From: Klebsiella pneumoniae
GTDB lineage: Bacteria > Pseudomonadota > Gammaproteobacteria > Ga0077536
Assembly (NCBI GenBank): GCA_945876945.1
Contig: CAMCQE010000022.1
Location: forward strand, 1 to 39,465
Reading direction: 5' to 3'
DNA length: 39,465 nucleotides
In this document: positions 16,773 through 39,446 of the stretch, in pieces
Numbering within the stretch: the first letter of the stretch is position 1
Layout: each line of letters starts with the position of its first letter
Made by a program: the position numbers and the translations under genes
Notes under the pieces: generated by a model
Told to the model about the DNA's origin: nothing
What the model saw: the letters and a program-made list of their open reading frames with translations, nothing else
Database searches by the model: none

Positions 16773-17927
16773 ATGGCCTGGAATGATTCCAACAACGGCA
16801 ATGACCGTGACCCCTGGGGCGGCCGACGCAACGATCAGGGTCCGCCCGACCTCGATGAGGTGCTGCGCAAGTTTCAGCAACGCCTGCGCGGCCTGTTTGG
16901 CGGGCCGCGCAAACCAGCTGGTGGCGGTGGCGGTGGCGAAAATGTGCCGGGTGCCGGCGTCCTCGCGCTGGGCGCGTTGGCGCTGGGCGTGCTCCTGCTC
17001 GGCGCCGAAATGTTCTGGCAGATCGAGCCCGCCGAGCGCGGCGTGGTATTGCGCTTCGGCCAGTACAAAACCACGCTGGAACCCGGCCCTCATCTGCGCT
17101 TCCCTCGCCCGATTGAAACCGTCATTCGGGTCAACCTCGACCAAATTCGCGCGTTTCCGGTGAACGCCACCATGCTCACCCAGGACGAGAACATCGTCGA
17201 CGTGCAGATTGCCGTGCAGTACCGGCTGAACAACGTCACCGACTACCTGCTGGAAATCGCCGACCCCGACGCCTCCGTGCAGCGCGTGGCCGAAAGTGCC
17301 ATTCGCGACGTGATTGGCACCAGCACCTTTGATTTCGTGATTGGTGAAGGGCGGGCCGAAATCGCGCTCAAGGCCACCGAACTCATGCAGCAGATGCTGG
17401 ACAACTACAAGTCCGGTATCGCGGTGACCAGCGTTAACCTGCTCTCCGCCAATCCGCCGGAACAAGTGAAAGCCGCCTACGACGATGCCATCAAGGCGCG
17501 TGAAGACGAGCAGCGCAAAATCAACGAAGCGCAGGCCTACAGCAATGAAATCACCGAACGCGCGGCAGGTAACGCGGATCGGGTGCGCCTCGAGTCGCAG
17601 GCCTACAAGGAACAGGTGGTGGCCCGGGCCGAAGGTGACGCCCGGCGCTTCAACCAGCTTGTGACGGAGTATCAAAAGGCGCCTGAAGTGACCCGCGATC
17701 GACTCTATTTCGACACCATGCAGGCGGTACTGCTCGGCAGTTCCAAGGTGCTGGTGGATGGTAAGACCGGCAGCAATATCAACTTGCTCCCGCTCGACAA
17801 ACTGATTGGCCGCGTGCCGACGGCGACAGGCGAGCCGACGGCGGCCTCGTCCGTTGAAGGGACGCCTGCCAGTCGCGAAAGCGGAGAACACAACCGCCCA
17901 GACAGCCGCAGCCGGGGGCAACGCTAA
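16773..17927 (+). CDS. hflK: FtsH protease modulator HflK
   Basis: An SPFH-family inner-membrane protein that forms a large cage with HflC around the FtsH protease. The 384-residue protein starts with a Gly/Asn-rich cytoplasmic tail. A single membrane segment lies at about 61-82, then the SPFH/band 7 domain begins with IEPAERGVVLRFG and ends in a long charged helix. The C-terminus is low in complexity. The last base of its stop codon is the first base of the hflC start (TAATG), so the two are translated together. Confidence 0.95.
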   Translation: MAWNDSNNGNDRDPWGGRRNDQGPPDLDEVLRKFQQRLRGLFGGPRKPAGGGGGGENVPGAGVLALGALALGVLLLGAEMFWQIEPAERGVVLRFGQYKTTLEPGPHLRFPRPIETVIRVNLDQIRAFPVNATMLTQDENIVDVQIAVQYRLNNVTDYLLEIADPDASVQRVAESAIRDVIGTSTFDFVIGEGRAEIALKATELMQQMLDNYKSGIAVTSVNLLSANPPEQVKAAYDDAIKAREDEQRKINEAQAYSNEITERAAGNADRVRLESQAYKEQVVARAEGDARRFNQLVTEYQKAPEVTRDRLYFDTMQAVLLGSSKVLVDGKTGSNINLLPLDKLIGRVPTATGEPTAASSVEGTPASRESGEHNRPDSRSRGQR

Positions 17928-18787
17928 TGGCCAGTCGCATCATTCTTGGAGTTCTGTTTCTCATTGCCGTGCTGTGGTCCTGCACTTTCAGGGTGTTTGA
18001 ACAGGAGCGCGCGGTGCTGTTCCAGCTCGGCGAAATCAAACGGGCCGATTTCACGCCCGGACTGCATTTCTTGATCCCTGTCTACCAGAACGTGCGGAAA
18101 TTCGACGGCCGCCTGCAGACGCTGGATTCCGAGCCGCAGCGCTTTCTCACCGGCGAAAAGAAAGACGTGATTGTCGATTCCTTCGTGCGCTGGCGCATCA
18201 AAGACGTGGTCAAGTTCTACCTCTCCACGGGCGGTGACTCCCGGCGCGCCGGCTTGCTGGTCTATCAAAAAATCAACGACGCGCTGCGCGTTGAGTTCGG
18301 CAAGCGCAAGGTGCAGGAAGTCGTTGCCGGGCAGCGGGGCGCCATTCTCGACATCGTTAACGCGAAAGCCGCAGAGCGTGGGCAGGAGCTGGGCATCGAG
18401 GTGGTCGATGTGCGCGTGAAGCGCATCGATCTGCCGGCCGAGGTCAGCAACGCAGTGTACGAACGCATGCGCGCCGAGCGCGCGCGGGTGGCGCGTGAAC
18501 TCCGGGCGCGCGGCGAAAAAGCAGCCATCCGCATTCGCGCCGATACCGATCGCCAGGCGACCGTCATTGCGGCAGAAGCCTATCGGGATGGTGAAAGCCT
18601 GCGCGGTGAGGGCGATGCCAAAGCCTCGCAAATTTCCGCCGCCGCCTATTCGCGCGATCCCGGTTTCTATGAGTTTTATCGCAGCCTCGGGGTGTATCGG
18701 GATAGCTTCAAAGACAAGTCCGACGTGCTGGTGCTTGCGCCTGACTCCGCCCTGTTCAAGTACTTCCGGGATCCAAACCCGCGCTAG
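17927..18787 (+). CDS. hflC: FtsH protease modulator HflC
   Basis: The HflK partner in the periplasm-facing SPFH complex that restrains FtsH. The 286-residue protein has one N-terminal membrane segment (about 5-22, IILGVLFLIAVLWSCTF), the SPFH core (FEQERAVLFQLGEIKR onward) and a long helical region with repeated Ala/Arg/Glu (about 180-240). It ends with the conserved SDVLVLAPDSALFKYF. The start shares one base with the hflK stop. Confidence 0.95.
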   Translation: MASRIILGVLFLIAVLWSCTFRVFEQERAVLFQLGEIKRADFTPGLHFLIPVYQNVRKFDGRLQTLDSEPQRFLTGEKKDVIVDSFVRWRIKDVVKFYLSTGGDSRRAGLLVYQKINDALRVEFGKRKVQEVVAGQRGAILDIVNAKAAERGQELGIEVVDVRVKRIDLPAEVSNAVYERMRAERARVARELRARGEKAAIRIRADTDRQATVIAAEAYRDGESLRGEGDAKASQISAAAYSRDPGFYEFYRSLGVYRDSFKDKSDVLVLAPDSALFKYFRDPNPR

Positions 18788-24092: not shown

Positions 24093-24244
24093 GGCTTGTT
24101 CCTTGATGAACCCTGTGAGGGTCCGGTTTTGAAGGGACGTGGCTCACGTTTTCGGCGGCGCCGAGCAACGGGTGGGCGCATGCTAGGAATCCGGGCACAA
24201 TTAGTCCAATCAATTCTCGTGATACCGGTGCATAGAAATAAGTG

Positions 24245-25171
24245 ATGAAGCGCGCGCCTCGGGTCGACCTCAATCTGTACCGGATTTTCGATGCCATCTA
24301 TACCGAAGGCAGCCTGACTCGCGCCGGTGAGGTGCTGCACCTCACCCAGCCCGCGGTCAGCAATGCCTTGTCGCGATTGCGTCTCGCCTATGACGATCCG
24401 CTCTTCGTGCGCACCGCCGGCGGCATGGTGCCAACGCCGGCCGCCGAGAGCATCGTGGCCGGCATTCGCAGCGCGCTGCAGCTGCTGGATGAATCCTTGA
24501 ACGCGCGACTCGCGTTTGATCCGCGCGCCGCCAAGCGTCGCTTTCGGCTGAGCGCCGGCGACCAGACGGCGGCCATGCTGGTGCCGCGACTTTTACGCAG
24601 TATTGCGGCGTATGAGTCAGAGATCGAACTCGAAATCTTGCCGCTGCGGCGGGAGTCAGTGCTGCACGAACTGGCGTCGGGCCAGCTCGATTTTGCCTTC
24701 GACGCCTTGCCTCTGTCCGACCCGCAGCTGCTGTCGATGAAAGTGCTGGAAGAAGAAATGGTGTGCGCCGTGCGCGCCGGGCATTGGGCCACGTGCCAGC
24801 CTTTTGGTCTGGACGATTATCTGGCGCTGTCCCATGTGCATGCCTCAAGTCGGCGGCAGGGGCCGGGCCTGATTGATCTGGCGCTCCGGCGTCTTGGTCG
24901 CCAGCGCCGCGTGGTCTTGCGGCTGCCCTATCACCTCGGATTACCGCATGTGGTGGCGGCCACGGATCTGGCGGCGAGTATCCCCAAGTCGCTTGCGCTG
25001 GCCCATGGGCTGCAGGGGTTGCCGCTGCCCTTTGACACACCGCCGGTAGATATCCATGCTTTTTGGCATAAAAGCGCGAACCTTGACGGCGGCAGCCTGT
25101 GGGTGCGCGAACTGCTCGGCGCGTTCGGCGGATCGGGCGTCGAAATAGAGGCTTCAAGAACTGAAACTTGA
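24245..25171 (+). CDS. LysR-family transcriptional regulator
   Basis: A 308-residue activator-type regulator. The N-terminal winged helix (about 8-65) reads LNLYRIFDAIYTEGSLTRAG with LTQPAVSNALSRLR as the recognition helix, and the effector domain follows from about 90. It is closest in pattern to the NodD/LinR/PcpR-like group, by overall impression only. An in-frame GTG at 24242 is an alternative start. It diverges from the acyl-CoA dehydrogenase and is followed by the DUF1302 gene in the same direction. Target genes could lie on both sides. No clear T-N11-A box stands out in the divergent region. Confidence 0.9.
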   Translation: MKRAPRVDLNLYRIFDAIYTEGSLTRAGEVLHLTQPAVSNALSRLRLAYDDPLFVRTAGGMVPTPAAESIVAGIRSALQLLDESLNARLAFDPRAAKRRFRLSAGDQTAAMLVPRLLRSIAAYESEIELEILPLRRESVLHELASGQLDFAFDALPLSDPQLLSMKVLEEEMVCAVRAGHWATCQPFGLDDYLALSHVHASSRRQGPGLIDLALRRLGRQRRVVLRLPYHLGLPHVVAATDLAASIPKSLALAHGLQGLPLPFDTPPVDIHAFWHKSANLDGGSLWVRELLGAFGGSGVEIEASRTET

Positions 25172-25221: not shown

Positions 25222-25287
25222 CCAGGATGCGCCGCGAAAGGACTCGAAAGCCATGACGTTTTATCGAACGCCAATTGAGAAGCAGCT

Positions 25288-27078
25288 GTGTTCCAAAGGC
25301 TTTTGACATTACTCGCCGCAGGAACGTTGTCTTGCGCTGCGAACGCGACCGATACGACCTTTCACTTGCCAGGCGACATCGATGGCAGCATCCACGGTGT
25401 GCTGAGTTTCGGCACCCAGATCCGTCTTGAAAGCCCGAGCCCCGAGGCCTATGGCGATTGGCCATCGCGCGTGGTGCGCGGCGTGCCGACCGGCTATCTG
25501 ATTGGTCAGCACGGCGGCAGCAATCTTAATTTCGAGGCGGGAGACCAAATCTCGACCGTGCTGAAGGGCGCGATCGACCTCGACCTCCACCGCGGTGCCG
25601 CCGGCATCCTCGTGCGCAGTAATCTCTGGAAAGACTTTGCGCTGGGCGAGCAGGACGTGCGCTACGGCAACTTTCCAAACCGCTTCACGCCCGATTCGCC
25701 GCTGGCCGATCGGGGCTTTGAGGACAGCGCGCAATTCAGCAGCGCCGAACTCCGCGACGCGTACTTCTACAACAGCTTCAAATTAGGCCCGGCGCAAACG
25801 CTGGACGTCCGCATCGGGCGCCAGACCATGCAATGGGGCGAAACCCTGCTGTTGCCCAGCGGCCTGAACGCGGCAATCAATCCCGCCGACTATCCCTCCC
25901 AGCTCCGGCCCGGCGCGCTCCCGACCGACAGGATGCTGCCGGTGGGCAGAGCCAGCTTCAAATGGGCCGAAGGCCAGATCTGGAGCTTTGAAGGCTTCGC
26001 CGATTTTGAATTCCGGCGCACCGTGTTGCCGGCCTGCGGCACCTACTTCGATACCGCGTCCTTCGCCCCGCATGGCTGTGATTTTGGCGGCGTGCCGGGC
26101 GCTTCAGAGCGGCAGCTGCTGGCGTTGGGGAGCTATATCCGTCGCCGAGCGGATGTGGACGCCAACGACATCGGCGGTTTCGGGTTCGCGCTCGGTGCTC
26201 ATTCCAAACTGCTGAATACCGATTTCAAGCTCTACGGCCTGCATACGCCGGCCACCATGCCAACGTTCCGGGTGACGATGGAATCCACCACACCGGGCCC
26301 GCTGGCCGCCAGCTACGCCACGCTGTATCCCGAGGATTTGCCGCTGGTGGGCTTGAGCTTCAAGCACGCGTTTAATCCCGGCGCGAAGCTGTTCGGCGAA
26401 GTGGCCTACCGTCCCGACCAACCGCTGACGCTGAACGTCTTCGACATGTTTGCCGGCTTTGCCAATCGCAATCCGCTCTCCATTTTGGCTTTGCGTAAAA
26501 ACATTCTGGGCATTCCGGTGGGCGGCACCTTCGACGGCTATGACCGCTACGGCGTGGTGACCGGCAGCCTCGGCGCTACCGCCGTTATTCCCGGGCTGTT
26601 CCGCGCCGAGCGGGCGATATTCGCGCTCGAGGCCGGGTTCAGCCATGTGAATGACTTGCCGGCGCCCACCCGCATTCGGTACTGGCGGCCGCCGCAGTAC
26701 GGCGGGGCAGCTTATGCCGGGCCGGGCGGGGCGCTCACGCCCTGTGTGGATCCGCCGGGACTTGCCGGCAGAAGCTGCAGCACCGAGGGCTATATTTCGG
26801 ATTCTGCCGTGGGCTTGCGGGCGCAGGCCTCGGCCAGCTATCCCGGCGCGCTCCTCGGCGCCACCTTGATCCCTTCGTTGTTAGTCACCGCAGATCTGGA
26901 CGGGTTTGCCTTCGACGGCAGCCTCTCCGAAGGTCGCACTATGCTCCGGCCGGCGCTGAAGGCCGAATGGAGTCAACGATACTTTCTGGAACTCAGCGCG
27001 AACGTGTTTTGTGGCGGTGACTACAACCTGATCGTTGACCGTGACTATCTGAGTCTGGTCGCCGGGCTGCGCATCTAA
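25288..27078 (+). CDS. DUF1302 family outer-membrane protein
   Basis: A 596-residue exported protein of the DUF1302 family. Its members are predicted beta-barrels often found with MMPL/RND transporters in hydrocarbon and steroid degraders, and are thought to help move hydrophobic substrates. Residues 1-20 form a signal peptide ending in ANA. The family's GRQTMQWGET motif is near 176-186. The rest alternates short strands and turns and ends with LSLVAGLRI, a typical barrel terminus. Two cysteine pairs in loops (CGTYFDTASFAPHGC and CVDPPGLAGRSC) suggest disulfides. The start is a GTG at 25288. The usual partner DUF1329 is absent. Its stop overlaps by one base the start of an EAL gene. Confidence 0.85.
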   Translation: MFQRLLTLLAAGTLSCAANATDTTFHLPGDIDGSIHGVLSFGTQIRLESPSPEAYGDWPSRVVRGVPTGYLIGQHGGSNLNFEAGDQISTVLKGAIDLDLHRGAAGILVRSNLWKDFALGEQDVRYGNFPNRFTPDSPLADRGFEDSAQFSSAELRDAYFYNSFKLGPAQTLDVRIGRQTMQWGETLLLPSGLNAAINPADYPSQLRPGALPTDRMLPVGRASFKWAEGQIWSFEGFADFEFRRTVLPACGTYFDTASFAPHGCDFGGVPGASERQLLALGSYIRRRADVDANDIGGFGFALGAHSKLLNTDFKLYGLHTPATMPTFRVTMESTTPGPLAASYATLYPEDLPLVGLSFKHAFNPGAKLFGEVAYRPDQPLTLNVFDMFAGFANRNPLSILALRKNILGIPVGGTFDGYDRYGVVTGSLGATAVIPGLFRAERAIFALEAGFSHVNDLPAPTRIRYWRPPQYGGAAYAGPGGALTPCVDPPGLAGRSCSTEGYISDSAVGLRAQASASYPGALLGATLIPSLLVTADLDGFAFDGSLSEGRTMLRPALKAEWSQRYFLELSANVFCGGDYNLIVDRDYLSLVAGLRI

Positions 27079-29078
27079 TGACCACGCCCGCGAACGAGCC
27101 GCAAAGCCAGACCACCAACCCGCCACCGCCAGGGGGAGGGGATGAGGCGCCAAGCCATGACCAGATGGCGGACCTCGCGCGGGAATGGGCGGCTGAAATT
27201 GGTCAAATTCTGGATTCGCGCGCGCAACTGACCCGCCGTGGACTGCTGGCCACCATGGCGATCGCGGCGGTGATGCTGCTGGTGGTGGGTGCGCACACCT
27301 TGTGGATGATCCAGCGCGGTGAAAGCGTAATCATCGATCCCGGGCCGGCTTTCGGCGGCGTTTTCGCCGTGCTGGTGATGATGATGATGGTGGTGCGGAG
27401 TGGCCTGCCGCATCCGCGGCTCACGCTAATCGTGTACGGGGTGATTGCTGCGGTGCAGGTTGTGGCGGTGGCCGTCAACGGACTCCCTGCGATTTTGATG
27501 GTCGCGGCGACGCTGACCTTCTCTCACATCATGCTGACGCCCCCGCGTTCGCTGGTGCTGGGGGTCACGCTGATTGTCCTCAGCGGCGTGGCCTTGCGGG
27601 CTTTCCATCCGGAAACCCCACCCGAGCTCTATCTCCGGGCCTTGGGAAGTGAGGTGTCCATTCTGCTGTTCATGCAGCTCGCGACCCGCTTCTGGGAAAA
27701 ACTGCTGCGCCGCTTCCACTATCTTGGGCGGGAGATGAGCCGCGTGGTGGCGGAAATGGACGTCGAACTCAACGCCGCCAAGGTGGTGGACGTGGAGTCT
27801 CGTTTACCCAACCGGCTGGGCTTTACGCTGGATGCCACCGCCTGGCTGGCGGGAGAGCGCGCGCCGGCGCAGGCCTTGGTCGTGACTTTGAATCTCACCA
27901 AGTGGCAGGACTCCATCGCGAGCTTCGGACCCACTGACCAACTTGATTTGCTCAATCAGCTGGTGGCGCAACTGCGGACAGGTGTTGGCGCAGGGGCGCT
28001 GCTGGCGCGCAGCGGCGCCGGCGAGTTCTGGGCCATGCTGCCGGTAACCGAAGGCCGGGAGATCGACCCTATCCGAACGCTCGAAATGTGGCTGGCCGAC
28101 CTGCAGCGGCCGCTGACCCAGCTGGCCTTGGCCGCCTTGACCTTGCCCCGTTTGGGCTTTTGCCGATTTCCGCAGGATGCGACCGATGTGCCCACCCTGA
28201 TGCGCAAGGCAGAGGTGGCGCTGCGCGCAGCTGAACGAACGGCCGCCGGGCACGCCTGCGGATTCCACCCCTCGATGGAACAGCAGGCAAGCGACCGTAC
28301 CCGTCTCACCCGGGATATTTCCGCAGCGATAAAAACCGATCAATTCGAGCTGTTCTATCAACCGATTCTCAGTGCGGGAGGCGGCCTGTTATTGAAGGCA
28401 GAAGGGCTCATCCGCTGGAATCATCCGCAACGTGGGTTTCTCGGCCCCGGCCAGTTCATCCATCTCGCGGAAGAAAGCGACCTCATTGTGGATTTAACCG
28501 AGTGGGTTATCCGCGCGGGGGTCTCACAGGTGCGCCAGTGGCGCGGCACGCTGGACCCGCGCTTTGAGTTAAGTGTCAACTTGCCACCCCAATATCTGAT
28601 GCGCTGTATTGACCCCCACAGCGAATTACTGCGTCGTCTGGGCGAGATCCATGTGCCGCCGGGCGCGATAGTGCTCGAAATCACCGAGGGGGCGATGCTC
28701 AATCTCACGCCGGAGATGTTGCGCGCCCTCAACACGCTGCGCGAGCTTGGATTCCAGATTGCCTTGGACGACTTCGGCGTGGGCTATTCCAGTTTCGGCC
28801 AGCTCGACAAGCTGCCGCTCGATTATCTAAAGCTGGATAAAGCCTTTGTGGACGGGCTTGAGCTACGGCCCCAGCGACGCGTCGTGCTGGAAGGGATCGT
28901 CCAGATGGCGCACGCGCTGGGCTTCAAAATCGTCGCCGAAGGCGTGGAATTGGACATCCAGCGTGAATGGCTCACCGCGATGCGCTGCGATTATCTGCAG
29001 GGCTACCTGTTCTCCAGGCCCATCCCCGTCGCCGAGCTTGAGGCGATGGTCAAAGCCCGCTCGCCCCTCGGCACCTGA
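27078..29078 (+). CDS. Membrane-bound degenerate GGDEF-EAL phosphodiesterase
   Basis: A 666-residue inner-membrane protein predicted to hydrolyse cyclic di-GMP. The N-terminal 55 residues are cytoplasmic and Pro/Gln-rich. Four to six membrane segments follow between about 56 and 200. A GGDEF-like domain (about 235-395) has SGAGEF (312-317) in place of GGDEF and should not make c-di-GMP. The EAL domain (415-660) keeps the metal and catalytic residues: E442 (in AEGLIRW, EGL for EAL), N501, E537, D564, D565, K585, E621 and Q641. It is therefore probably active. The ATG shares one base with the DUF1302 stop, an unusual pairing. No sensor domain other than the membrane part is evident. Confidence 0.92.
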   Translation: MTTPANEPQSQTTNPPPPGGGDEAPSHDQMADLAREWAAEIGQILDSRAQLTRRGLLATMAIAAVMLLVVGAHTLWMIQRGESVIIDPGPAFGGVFAVLVMMMMVVRSGLPHPRLTLIVYGVIAAVQVVAVAVNGLPAILMVAATLTFSHIMLTPPRSLVLGVTLIVLSGVALRAFHPETPPELYLRALGSEVSILLFMQLATRFWEKLLRRFHYLGREMSRVVAEMDVELNAAKVVDVESRLPNRLGFTLDATAWLAGERAPAQALVVTLNLTKWQDSIASFGPTDQLDLLNQLVAQLRTGVGAGALLARSGAGEFWAMLPVTEGREIDPIRTLEMWLADLQRPLTQLALAALTLPRLGFCRFPQDATDVPTLMRKAEVALRAAERTAAGHACGFHPSMEQQASDRTRLTRDISAAIKTDQFELFYQPILSAGGGLLLKAEGLIRWNHPQRGFLGPGQFIHLAEESDLIVDLTEWVIRAGVSQVRQWRGTLDPRFELSVNLPPQYLMRCIDPHSELLRRLGEIHVPPGAIVLEITEGAMLNLTPEMLRALNTLRELGFQIALDDFGVGYSSFGQLDKLPLDYLKLDKAFVDGLELRPQRRVVLEGIVQMAHALGFKIVAEGVELDIQREWLTAMRCDYLQGYLFSRPIPVAELEAMVKARSPLGT

Positions 29079-29170: not shown

Positions 29171-29935
29171 ATGGCACGCGATCATTTCAATCTCGACGGC
29201 CGCGTTGCGCTGGTGGCCGGCGCCAGCCGCGGTATCGGCGAAGCCATCGCCAAACGTCTGGCGGAGTATGGCGCGACCGTGCTCGTGACCAGCCGCAAGG
29301 TGGAAAGCTGTCAGGCCGTGGCCGACGCGATCATCGCCGCCGGCGGTAAGGCCGAAGCGCTGGGTTGCCACATTGGCGATCTGGCCCAGATAGAGCGCAC
29401 CTTCCAGCACATCGACGCCCACTATGGCCGCATCGATATTCTGGTGAACAACGCGGCGGCCAATCCTTTCTACGGACACATCCTCGATACGCCCGTCTCG
29501 GCGTTCGAAAAAACCATCGAAGTGAACATGCGCGGCTACTTCTACATGTCGGTGGAAGCCGGCAAGCGCATGCGCGAGCAGGGCAAGGGCTCGATTGTGA
29601 ATGTCGCTTCCGCCAACGGCATCACGCCCGGCGACAAACAGGCCATTTACTCCATGACCAAGGCGGCGATTCTCAATATGACGCAGGCCTTCGCCAACGA
29701 ATGCGGGCAGTGGAATATCCGCGTGAATGCGCTGGTGCCGGGCGTGACCAAGACCCGCTTCGCGCAAGCCCTGCACGATGACGAATCCTTCCTCGCCCCG
29801 GCACGCGCCCGCACCCCGCTGGGCCGTTCGGCAGAGCCGGAAGAAATGGCCGGCGCGGTGCTGTATCTCTGCTCTGACGCTTCCTCTTACACCACCGGCA
29901 GCTTCGTCACGGTCGACGGTGGATATCTCGCATGA
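29171..29935 (+). CDS. Short-chain dehydrogenase/reductase 1 (probably NADP-linked)
   Basis: A 254-residue Rossmann-fold oxidoreductase. The cofactor motif is GASRGIG (17-23), followed by NNAA (93-96), and the catalytic triad is S147, Y160 and K164. Basic residues after strand two (TSRKVE) favour NADP over NAD. C-terminal PGVTKTRFAQAL and TGSFVTVDGGY are normal for the classical family. A strong GGGGGAG site precedes the ATG. It is the first gene of a tight five-gene cluster ending with an MFS exporter. By context it may act on a 3-hydroxyacyl-CoA or a related alcohol or ketone; the substrate is not known. Confidence 0.9.
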   Translation: MARDHFNLDGRVALVAGASRGIGEAIAKRLAEYGATVLVTSRKVESCQAVADAIIAAGGKAEALGCHIGDLAQIERTFQHIDAHYGRIDILVNNAAANPFYGHILDTPVSAFEKTIEVNMRGYFYMSVEAGKRMREQGKGSIVNVASANGITPGDKQAIYSMTKAAILNMTQAFANECGQWNIRVNALVPGVTKTRFAQALHDDESFLAPARARTPLGRSAEPEEMAGAVLYLCSDASSYTTGSFVTVDGGYLA

Positions 29936-36650: not shown

Positions 36651-37016
36651 CCGTTGCCCAGACCGGCGAGACGGTCCCGCTTCCCTCAAATAGGGGGCGA
36701 TTGCCCGGTGCGAGGCGCGAAAATCAGGGCCTTTTCGGTATCGCCATCGCTCATCGCATCGCATACCATTGAACTTGCCTTCGGGAATTTACCCGGCTCG
36801 GCATCCTGCTGTTCTTACGACAGGAATGACGGTGTCGGCATGCCTCGTTAGGAATGGGCGTCAGCGGGCTAGTACCACGGGAGCGTTACTGCTCGTTGAC
36901 CTTTGTGAGTGAGTGCTTCATTTGCCAGATTCGGCACGCTGAAGTCGTTCGAAACTAAAGTTCACCTGCCGGAGCAGGGAATAGGGGGAGTCTTGGCTGG
37001 TAACCACAATCATGAA
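36651..37016. other. Gene-free stretch before the MMPL transporter
   Basis: No open frame with gene character is visible in these 366 bp. It holds a small hairpin, GACCG-GCGAGA-CGGTC (36661-36676), which may end the YCII gene without a T-run, and an imperfect palindrome CGGGAATTTACCCG (36782-36795). TTGAC at 36896 resembles a -35 box but has no matching -10. It presumably carries the promoter and any operator of the transporter gene. Confidence 0.5.
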
Positions 37017-39446
37017 ATGCGACAGACACGCGGCGCCGCAATCGCCAACTGGCTGATGGATCGCAAATGGGCGTCTTTCCTGCTCATCTGTGTTCCGACC
37101 ATCATGCTCGCATTGCACATTCCGAAGATTAAGGTCGAATCACAGTTCTCTGACCTGCTCCCCAAAGAGCATGAGTACATCAAGAACTACAACAAGATGA
37201 AGCAGACCTTCGGTGGTGCCAACGTCATCACGATGGCGCTTGAGGTCACAGACCCCAACGAAGACATCTTCACCTACGACACGCTCTCCAAGCTCAAATA
37301 CCTGACCGACGAAGTCGACAAGATCGAAGGCGTTAACCACTATCAGGTCGCGAGTATCGCGCACGGCAAGGTGCGGCGAATCCGTACCACCGGCGGCGGT
37401 CTTATCAAGTCCGAGCCCGTGTTGCCCAAAGACCTGCCTAAAGACGTCGAACAGTTGAAGCAACTGCGTGAAGAAGCCTTCAACAACGACATCGTGTACG
37501 GCACCTACATCTCGACCGACGGTAAGCTGGCGCTGGTGTTCGCCGGCTTCGTGGAAGGCGTGCTGAAGTACAGCACCATTCACACGAAGATGCAGGAGTT
37601 CAAGGAAAACGTCGAGAAAGACGGCAAAACCAAGCTCTACGTTGCCGGCGAGCCGATGTTGAAGGGCTGGATTTACTTCTACACTCCAGAGTTGGTGCTC
37701 ATCTTTGGCGTGACTCTCGCCGTGATGGTGGCGCTGCTGTTCTTCCACTTCTACTCGATTGCCGGTGTGGTGGTGCCAATGTTGGGTACCGTCCTCTCCG
37801 CAGTCTGGGGCTTGGGCTTCGTGGGTTGGATGGACTTCAACCTTGACCCGCTGATTCTCGTGGTGCCGGTGCTCATCTCCGCGCGAACTGCCAGTCACTG
37901 TGTACAGATGATGGAGCGCTATTACGACGAAATTCGGGTGGGCGCTGAGAAGGAAGCGGCGGTCCGCGTGTCCATGGGCGAACTCCTGCTGCCGGCCACG
38001 CTGGGGATTCTGGCGGACGCCTTTGCGCTGCTGGTGCTCACGGTCTCCTCTATGCCGATGATCGCCAAGCTCGGTATGTACTGCTCCTTCTGGGGCGCGA
38101 GTAACCTCGTGACGGTAGCGGTGCTGGTACCGCTGGTCATGTCGCTGCTGCCGAAACCGACCGTCTCGATTCAGGAAGAGCACAAGCATCTTCCGTCCCG
38201 CATCATGCACAACCTCGGCGTGTTCCTGGTGGGCCCGAAGGCCTCCACGATCATTATGGGTGGCGCGGTGCTGTTGACGGTCTGGGCGTTCTACTTCGGC
38301 TGGACCATCCAGATTGGTGAAAGCAAGCCGGGATCGCCGATTCTCTATCCCGAGCATGAGTACAACATCTCCGCCTCCAAGATTGCCGAAAAGTTCGCGG
38401 GTGCGAACCAGCTCAGCATCTACTTTGAAGGTGACGGCCCGCACCGCATGAAGGACCCCGCTGTGGTTGCCACCATGCAGGCCTTTGGGCGCTACATGGC
38501 GGACACCCGTAACTTCGGTGGTACCCGCGACATTCCGCAGCTGGTGCGTTCGATCAACCGTCTGTACCACTACGACGATCCGCGCTGGTCGCTGGTTCCG
38601 AGCTCGCAGACCAACATCGGTAACACCCTGTTCATGTACGAAGCGGGCGCGTCCATGCCGGGCGTTATTCTCGAGTACATGGATTTGGAAGGCCGGACCG
38701 CCAACTTCGTGGTGTTCTACAAGGACGCCACGGGACCGACGGTCAGCGAAGCGGTTAAGAAGGCGCATGACTGGCTGGAAGCCCACCCGATGGAAGGCGT
38801 GACCCCGCGCTTCGCCGGCGGCATCATCGGCACCACGGCGGCGGCCAATGAGGAAACCCATGAGTCAGACATCAAGACGACAATTGCCATCGTGCTGGTG
38901 GTGACGCTGGCGATCATCGTGGCCTACCGCTCCTTGGTGGCGGGTCTTATGGTGTTCGGGCTGCTCATCCTCTGCGTGATGACCAACCGTGCGTTCATGG
39001 GCATGCGCGACATCGGCCTCAACGTGAATACCTTGCCGGTAACGGCGGTGGGTATCGGCGTCGGCGTCGACTACGCGATCTACATGTTGGACCGCCTGAA
39101 GGAAGAAGCGCGCCACCGTACGCTCATCGACGCCATCGTGACGTCCATGCGCACGACGGGTGCGGCGATTCTCTTCACCGCGACCACCATCTTCGCCGGC
39201 ATTATCTTCTGGATTCCGCTGTCGACCCTGCGCTTCAACGGCGAAATGTCGCTGCTGCTCTGCTTGCTGCTCTTCAGCAACATGATCGGCGCCATCACGC
39301 TGGTTCCGCTGCTTGTCCACCTGTTCAAGCCGCGTTTTGTGACCGATTCGCACATTGATGATCGCGACACCATTCGTGACCAGCAGCTGGGCGGTTGGCA
39401 GGCGAAGTCCATCGCACGGATGGGGGGCGGCGCCGTAGGCGCTTAA
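37017..39446 (+). CDS. MMPL/RND family transporter
   Basis: A large inner-membrane exporter of the MMPL/RND superfamily with two similar halves, about 12 membrane segments and two periplasmic loops, 809 residues from the ATG at 37017. The second half has the proton-relay GVGVDYAIYMLDR with D685. The first half has ISARTASHCVQMMERY (with H294) at the same position, with no aspartate. This half-asymmetric form is typical of the RND proteins found with DUF1302 proteins in steroid and hydrocarbon degraders. An in-frame TTG at 36993 beside GGGGGAG, or GTG at 36909, could be the true start; the ATG is preferred because it places a normal short tail before the first membrane segment (WASFLLICVPTIMLALHI). 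Confidence 0.9.
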   Translation: MRQTRGAAIANWLMDRKWASFLLICVPTIMLALHIPKIKVESQFSDLLPKEHEYIKNYNKMKQTFGGANVITMALEVTDPNEDIFTYDTLSKLKYLTDEVDKIEGVNHYQVASIAHGKVRRIRTTGGGLIKSEPVLPKDLPKDVEQLKQLREEAFNNDIVYGTYISTDGKLALVFAGFVEGVLKYSTIHTKMQEFKENVEKDGKTKLYVAGEPMLKGWIYFYTPELVLIFGVTLAVMVALLFFHFYSIAGVVVPMLGTVLSAVWGLGFVGWMDFNLDPLILVVPVLISARTASHCVQMMERYYDEIRVGAEKEAAVRVSMGELLLPATLGILADAFALLVLTVSSMPMIAKLGMYCSFWGASNLVTVAVLVPLVMSLLPKPTVSIQEEHKHLPSRIMHNLGVFLVGPKASTIIMGGAVLLTVWAFYFGWTIQIGESKPGSPILYPEHEYNISASKIAEKFAGANQLSIYFEGDGPHRMKDPAVVATMQAFGRYMADTRNFGGTRDIPQLVRSINRLYHYDDPRWSLVPSSQTNIGNTLFMYEAGASMPGVILEYMDLEGRTANFVVFYKDATGPTVSEAVKKAHDWLEAHPMEGVTPRFAGGIIGTTAAANEETHESDIKTTIAIVLVVTLAIIVAYRSLVAGLMVFGLLILCVMTNRAFMGMRDIGLNVNTLPVTAVGIGVGVDYAIYMLDRLKEEARHRTLIDAIVTSMRTTGAAILFTATTIFAGIIFWIPLSTLRFNGEMSLLLCLLLFSNMIGAITLVPLLVHLFKPRFVTDSHIDDRDTIRDQQLGGWQAKSIARMGGGAVGA

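Follow-up and report, generated by a model that had tools for sequence, protein, structure and literature searches.

The window, the whole stretch of 39,465 nucleotides that was analysed, is contig C22 of a 3.8-Mb genome in 219 contigs (G000) from an uncultured gammaproteobacterium. It carries a DUF1302 gene directly followed by a GGDEF-EAL gene, in the same order as in G001, a sister species of the same genus:

24242–25171, forward strand: LysR-type regulator upstream of the pair; bounds the empty site of the congeners G003 and G007 on the left
25277–25282, forward strand: Shine-Dalgarno-like GAGAAG, 5 bases ahead of the DUF1302 GTG; the same in the sister species
25288–27078, forward strand: DUF1302 outer-membrane beta-barrel gene, 596 aa, start GTG, stop TAA (Pfam PF06980, AlphaFold, fold matches)
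25288–25347, forward strand: predicted Sec signal peptide MFQRLLTLLAAGTLSCAANA, read from the sequence; helix 2–13 of the model has low confidence
27076–27080, forward strand: TAATG stop/start overlap, the same in the sister species, with no Shine-Dalgarno motif ahead
27078–29078, forward strand: membrane-anchored GGDEF-EAL gene, predicted c-di-GMP phosphodiesterase, 666 aa, start ATG (Pfam, solved relatives)
27240–27686, forward strand: N-terminal membrane region, about six predicted helices (aa 55–203) with short loops (hydropathy, low-confidence model)
27786–28241, forward strand: degenerate GGDEF domain, motif GAGEF (Pfam, alignment)
28311–29021, forward strand: EAL domain, complete in its eight catalytic residues (Pfam, alignment); omega 0.066 between the two species
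29171–29935, forward strand: SDR oxidoreductase; bounds the congeners' empty site on the right

The two reading frames have base 27078 in common, within ...CGCATCTAATGACC, as the first-pass annotation had stated when it described a DUF1302 stop and an EAL start sharing one base. We saw no ribosome-binding motif ahead of the EAL ATG, either here or in the sister species, and neither boundary of the pair has a terminator-like site. A GAGAAG motif at the DUF1302 GTG and none at the EAL ATG would fit coupling by translational re-initiation. The overlap itself is ordinary, since hflK and hflC in the same window are joined by an identical one-base TAATG (17925–17929) and the two SDR genes that follow the pair overlap each other by 4 bases. 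The best NCBIfam model for the LysR-type regulator is BsrA, at 228 bits and under its cut-off of 480.

The DUF1302 product matches PF06980 at full length, with 352.5 bits against a curated cut-off of 23.2 over residues 2–593 and profile positions 2–538 of 541. A profile sequence search against the PDB returned no real relative; the AlphaFold model (44 sequences) is a beta-barrel with strands throughout (mean pLDDT 84.6), and Foldseek matched it to porins, OccD/K channels, DcaP and AlgE, down to E 8e-10. The model supports an outer-membrane channel and says nothing about a hydrophobic substrate. The substrate is probably lipid-like or another hydrophobic compound, judging solely by the acyl-CoA, SDR and AMP-ligase genes nearby and by other DUF1302 systems. 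Uptake of such a substrate, which the first-pass annotation had assumed, is a guess, because the model resembles porins, AlgE and DcaP, and the published DUF1302 proteins belong to an apparent exporter or are required for growth on Tween 20.

The second protein scores 223.6 bits for EAL and a weak 33.4 bits for GGDEF in Pfam. Both earlier statements about these domains, an EAL domain with every key residue and a degenerate GGDEF domain, agree with the alignments. The eight catalytic and metal residues, E442 (of the ExL motif), N501, E534, D564, D565, K585, E621 and Q641, are each present and do not vary across a 24-sequence alignment. By sequence and fold, the EAL part lies nearest to PA0575, MorA, MucR, RocR and other phosphodiesterases, with LapD and FimX scoring far lower, and we predict a catalytically competent c-di-GMP phosphodiesterase. 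The GGDEF active site reads S-GAGEF, departing from GG(D/E)EF, and the upstream DxD/FKxxND metal and GTP residues are lost, with LNLTKW in the DLDRFK position; no cyclase activity or GTP sensing is therefore expected. Hydropathy and a model of low confidence in this part place about six membrane helices with short loops in the first 230 residues, followed by a long helix that leads to the catalytic part. This N-terminus matched no Pfam domain, a search of 369 class genomes at E 0.001 found no relatives of it, and Pfam found no HAMP or periplasmic output domain in the protein. The phosphodiesterase has no periplasmic sensor domain able to read the channel.

We searched for the pair in 144 relatives, 36 family genomes, 369 class-spread genomes and 80 DUF1302 loci from named GTDB genomes. 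Among the 144 relatives, a close copy occurs only in G001, where the DUF1302 and EAL proteins are 94% and 90% identical to those of the window and synteny is complete across 19.8 kb at 92% DNA identity; the contig-wide scan lists the sister under MAG Jr-16oct17-58 (unclassified Gammaproteobacteria bacterium). Among the matches listed, the DUF1302 that ranks next has only 32% identity. Outside the sister species, no DUF1302-EAL pair was found in the genomes and loci surveyed. These absences cover close relatives of the pair and the surveyed loci, not bacteria at large, in searches that were not exhaustive: a strong DUF1302 in G002, picked up with the profile, escaped a genome search with a single protein. 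Looked for in other genomes, the pair thus turned up in the sister species and was not found in seven of eight congeners, four of which show an empty site.

Between the window and the sister, dN/dS is 0.079 for DUF1302 and 0.066 for the EAL domain, rising to 0.25 for GGDEF and to 0.34 for the membrane part, the fastest-evolving region of the protein. The DUF1302 and EAL genes are under strong purifying selection, and this, with conservation in the sister, argues that both genes work. The pair is real and apparently kept by selection, and it is a local oddity of two uncultured species, not a widespread new system. Its occurrence in just these two close relatives offers no independent recurrence from which selection of the two genes as a pair could be shown, and being neighbours does not by itself prove that they share a role.

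In G003 and G007, LysR is followed directly by SDR with a gap of about 215–220 bp and no pair between them, and in G002 and G006 the two genes adjoin (about 240–285 bp) with LysR flipped. Four congeners show this arrangement, and the two genes thus seem to have been gained together in a single lineage. The closest relatives are uninformative because the G004 contig breaks within the LysR gene and G008 has other genes after the acyl-CoA dehydrogenase gene. The simplest history is a joint insertion of both genes in the common ancestor of G000 and G001, and loss of the pair elsewhere is less likely; in either case the pair was gained or retained as one unit. GC content is flat over the two-gene cassette and the same as in its surroundings, giving no foreign-DNA signature. 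Alignment to the empty sites did not locate exact insertion boundaries, and no target-site repeat can be claimed because the intergenic DNA is too diverged. The LysR gene is inverted in place in G002 and G006 (L181 5520–6395 and L182 6278–7156), facing away from the SDR genes, and points towards them in G000, G001, G003 and G007.

We also surveyed 146 DUF1302 genes, taken from GTDB genomes and from sampling across the class, for neighbours on the same strand and no more than 300 bp away. DUF1329 is the usual partner, adjoining DUF1302 in 123 cases, whereas an EAL gene met this definition once, in the sister species itself. By this survey the pair is not a general system, as no other DUF1302 gene in it had such a neighbour. 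Two further loci were considered and rejected as pairs: in Motiliproteus sediminis (L158 2828–5443 and 5908–7824) the EAL gene is divergent, on the other strand and 465 bp away, and in G319 (L234 4041–9323) it is on the same strand, 961 bp upstream; both are loose neighbours only.

The canonical DUF1302-DUF1329-RND operon is present in the congener G002 and the family member G023; at the window pair itself, neither DUF1329 nor an HAE3/MMPL RND pump adjoins. In the DUF1302 tree, the window protein falls within the DUF1329-associated family, beside two Pseudomonas proteins, on a very long branch (1.54), and its origin is therefore not resolved by the tree. Because of this position inside the family, we read it as a diverged DUF1302 that lost its usual DUF1329 neighbour, and a phosphodiesterase gene stands in that place. 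The genome holds nine DUF1329 match segments and three DUF1302 genes; the DUF1329 genes on C9, C136, C66 and C80 have no DUF1302 listed on the same contig, and DUF1329 from C9, C136 or C66 could act in trans. About 8 kb downstream of the pair (36909–39446) lies an 845-aa MMPL-family RND protein that shares 25–29% identity with the RND pumps found in canonical DUF1302 operons, adjoined by neither DUF1302 nor DUF1329.

We favour, with a probability of roughly 0.55, a co-expressed operon in which c-di-GMP removal would accompany induction of the channel. The locus would be a lineage-specific two-gene operon joining a DUF1302 channel that has no DUF1329 partner to an EAL phosphodiesterase, the two being transcribed and translated together. 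Whatever induces the channel would then also produce the phosphodiesterase and simultaneously lower c-di-GMP; the regulatory link would be co-expression, and we do not take the channel itself to signal to the enzyme. Supporting this reading are the identical overlap in both species, the missing Shine-Dalgarno motif of the EAL gene and the absence of boundary terminators, together with selection on both genes, the intact EAL domain, the empty site, the flat GC content and the beta-barrel prediction.

The two genes may instead share a message through an accident of insertion, the phosphodiesterase being one of several in the genome and having no functional tie to the channel. This is possible but clearly less probable than the co-expression reading: the pair was not found in most congeners or in any of the other families sampled, TAATG overlaps are commonplace and the genome holds at least seven GGDEF-EAL matches, all of which would suit a bystander, but the one-base overlap has been kept in both species, the EAL domain is under strong purifying selection and its gene lacks a Shine-Dalgarno motif of its own. 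The EAL protein might also have ceased to be an enzyme and serve as a c-di-GMP receptor of the LapD kind. LapD has a dead GGDEF domain and a membrane anchor, features that the window protein has too; a receptor of that type, however, has a degenerate EAL domain, whereas here the catalytic residues are all kept, the nearest solved relatives are phosphodiesterases and no HAMP or periplasmic output domain was found, which makes a receptor very improbable.

The first-pass annotation had gone further and suggested that uptake drives local removal of c-di-GMP. In such a scheme, substrate in the DUF1302 barrel, or the barrel itself, would alter phosphodiesterase activity through the membrane domain, and feeding would consequently lower c-di-GMP near the channel and favour dispersal; we consider both the mechanism and this consequence unlikely. 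The N-terminal membrane domain is unlike known ones and, in the model, its long helix to the catalytic part could pass a signal; moreover, the outer-membrane protein OmpS of Alcanivorax is reported, as cited in PMC6304351, to trigger a response to alkanes. Against this, the protein has short loops and no periplasmic domain, its membrane region evolves faster than any other part, no physical link to the outer-membrane barrel is visible and the pair does not recur. Without a periplasmic sensor domain in the phosphodiesterase, removal driven by uptake is unsupported, and co-expression is the simpler account. A true signalling unit of DUF1302 and the phosphodiesterase, with c-di-GMP lowered via a previously undescribed six-helix membrane domain when an outer-membrane hydrophobe channel is present or in use, seems to us a shade less credible again, though not as improbable as a receptor.

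If co-expression is correct, the locus is a small, clean case in which operon fusion has wired a nutrient or lipid channel to the switch between planktonic and attached life, and it has been caught at an early stage, since congeners still show the empty site. Direct sensing, if true, would provide c-di-GMP signalling with an input from the outer membrane and with a new sensor domain in the membrane.

Known systems share parts of this arrangement. A literature search for DUF1302 together with c-di-GMP found both words only in PMC7603352, in unrelated contexts. In AmeABCD of Castellaniella defragrans, DUF1302 works alongside DUF1329, YCF48-like and RND proteins, apparently to export monoterpenes (PMC6394551), and DUF1302 proteins have been found regulated together with aromatic catabolism (PMC6449761). 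The window resembles these DUF1302-DUF1329-(YCF48)-RND operons (PMC6394551; PMC6449761) in having a DUF1302 outer-membrane protein (AmeA in C. defragrans) encoded in an operon near lipid or hydrocarbon catabolism, but has no adjoining DUF1329, YCF48 or RND gene and carries a phosphodiesterase in the downstream place. PP_0765/PP_0766 (DUF1302/DUF1329) of P. putida, required for growth on Tween 20 (PMC10866462), belongs to the same beta-barrel family, with DUF1329 rather than a c-di-GMP enzyme as the partner; on the direction of transport, the published systems point both ways. The OmpS pathway of Alcanivorax dieselolei, in which a TonB-dependent receptor serves alkane chemotaxis, is alike in idea, tying an outer-membrane protein to a behavioural response to hydrocarbons; we claim no homology, and the account cited in PMC6304351 makes no mention of c-di-GMP. 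PA0575, MorA, MucR and BifA have the same domain order, catalytic EAL residues and fold as the window GGDEF-EAL protein, which differs from them in an unrelated N-terminal membrane domain and in a GGDEF domain that is degenerate at the metal and GTP positions as well.
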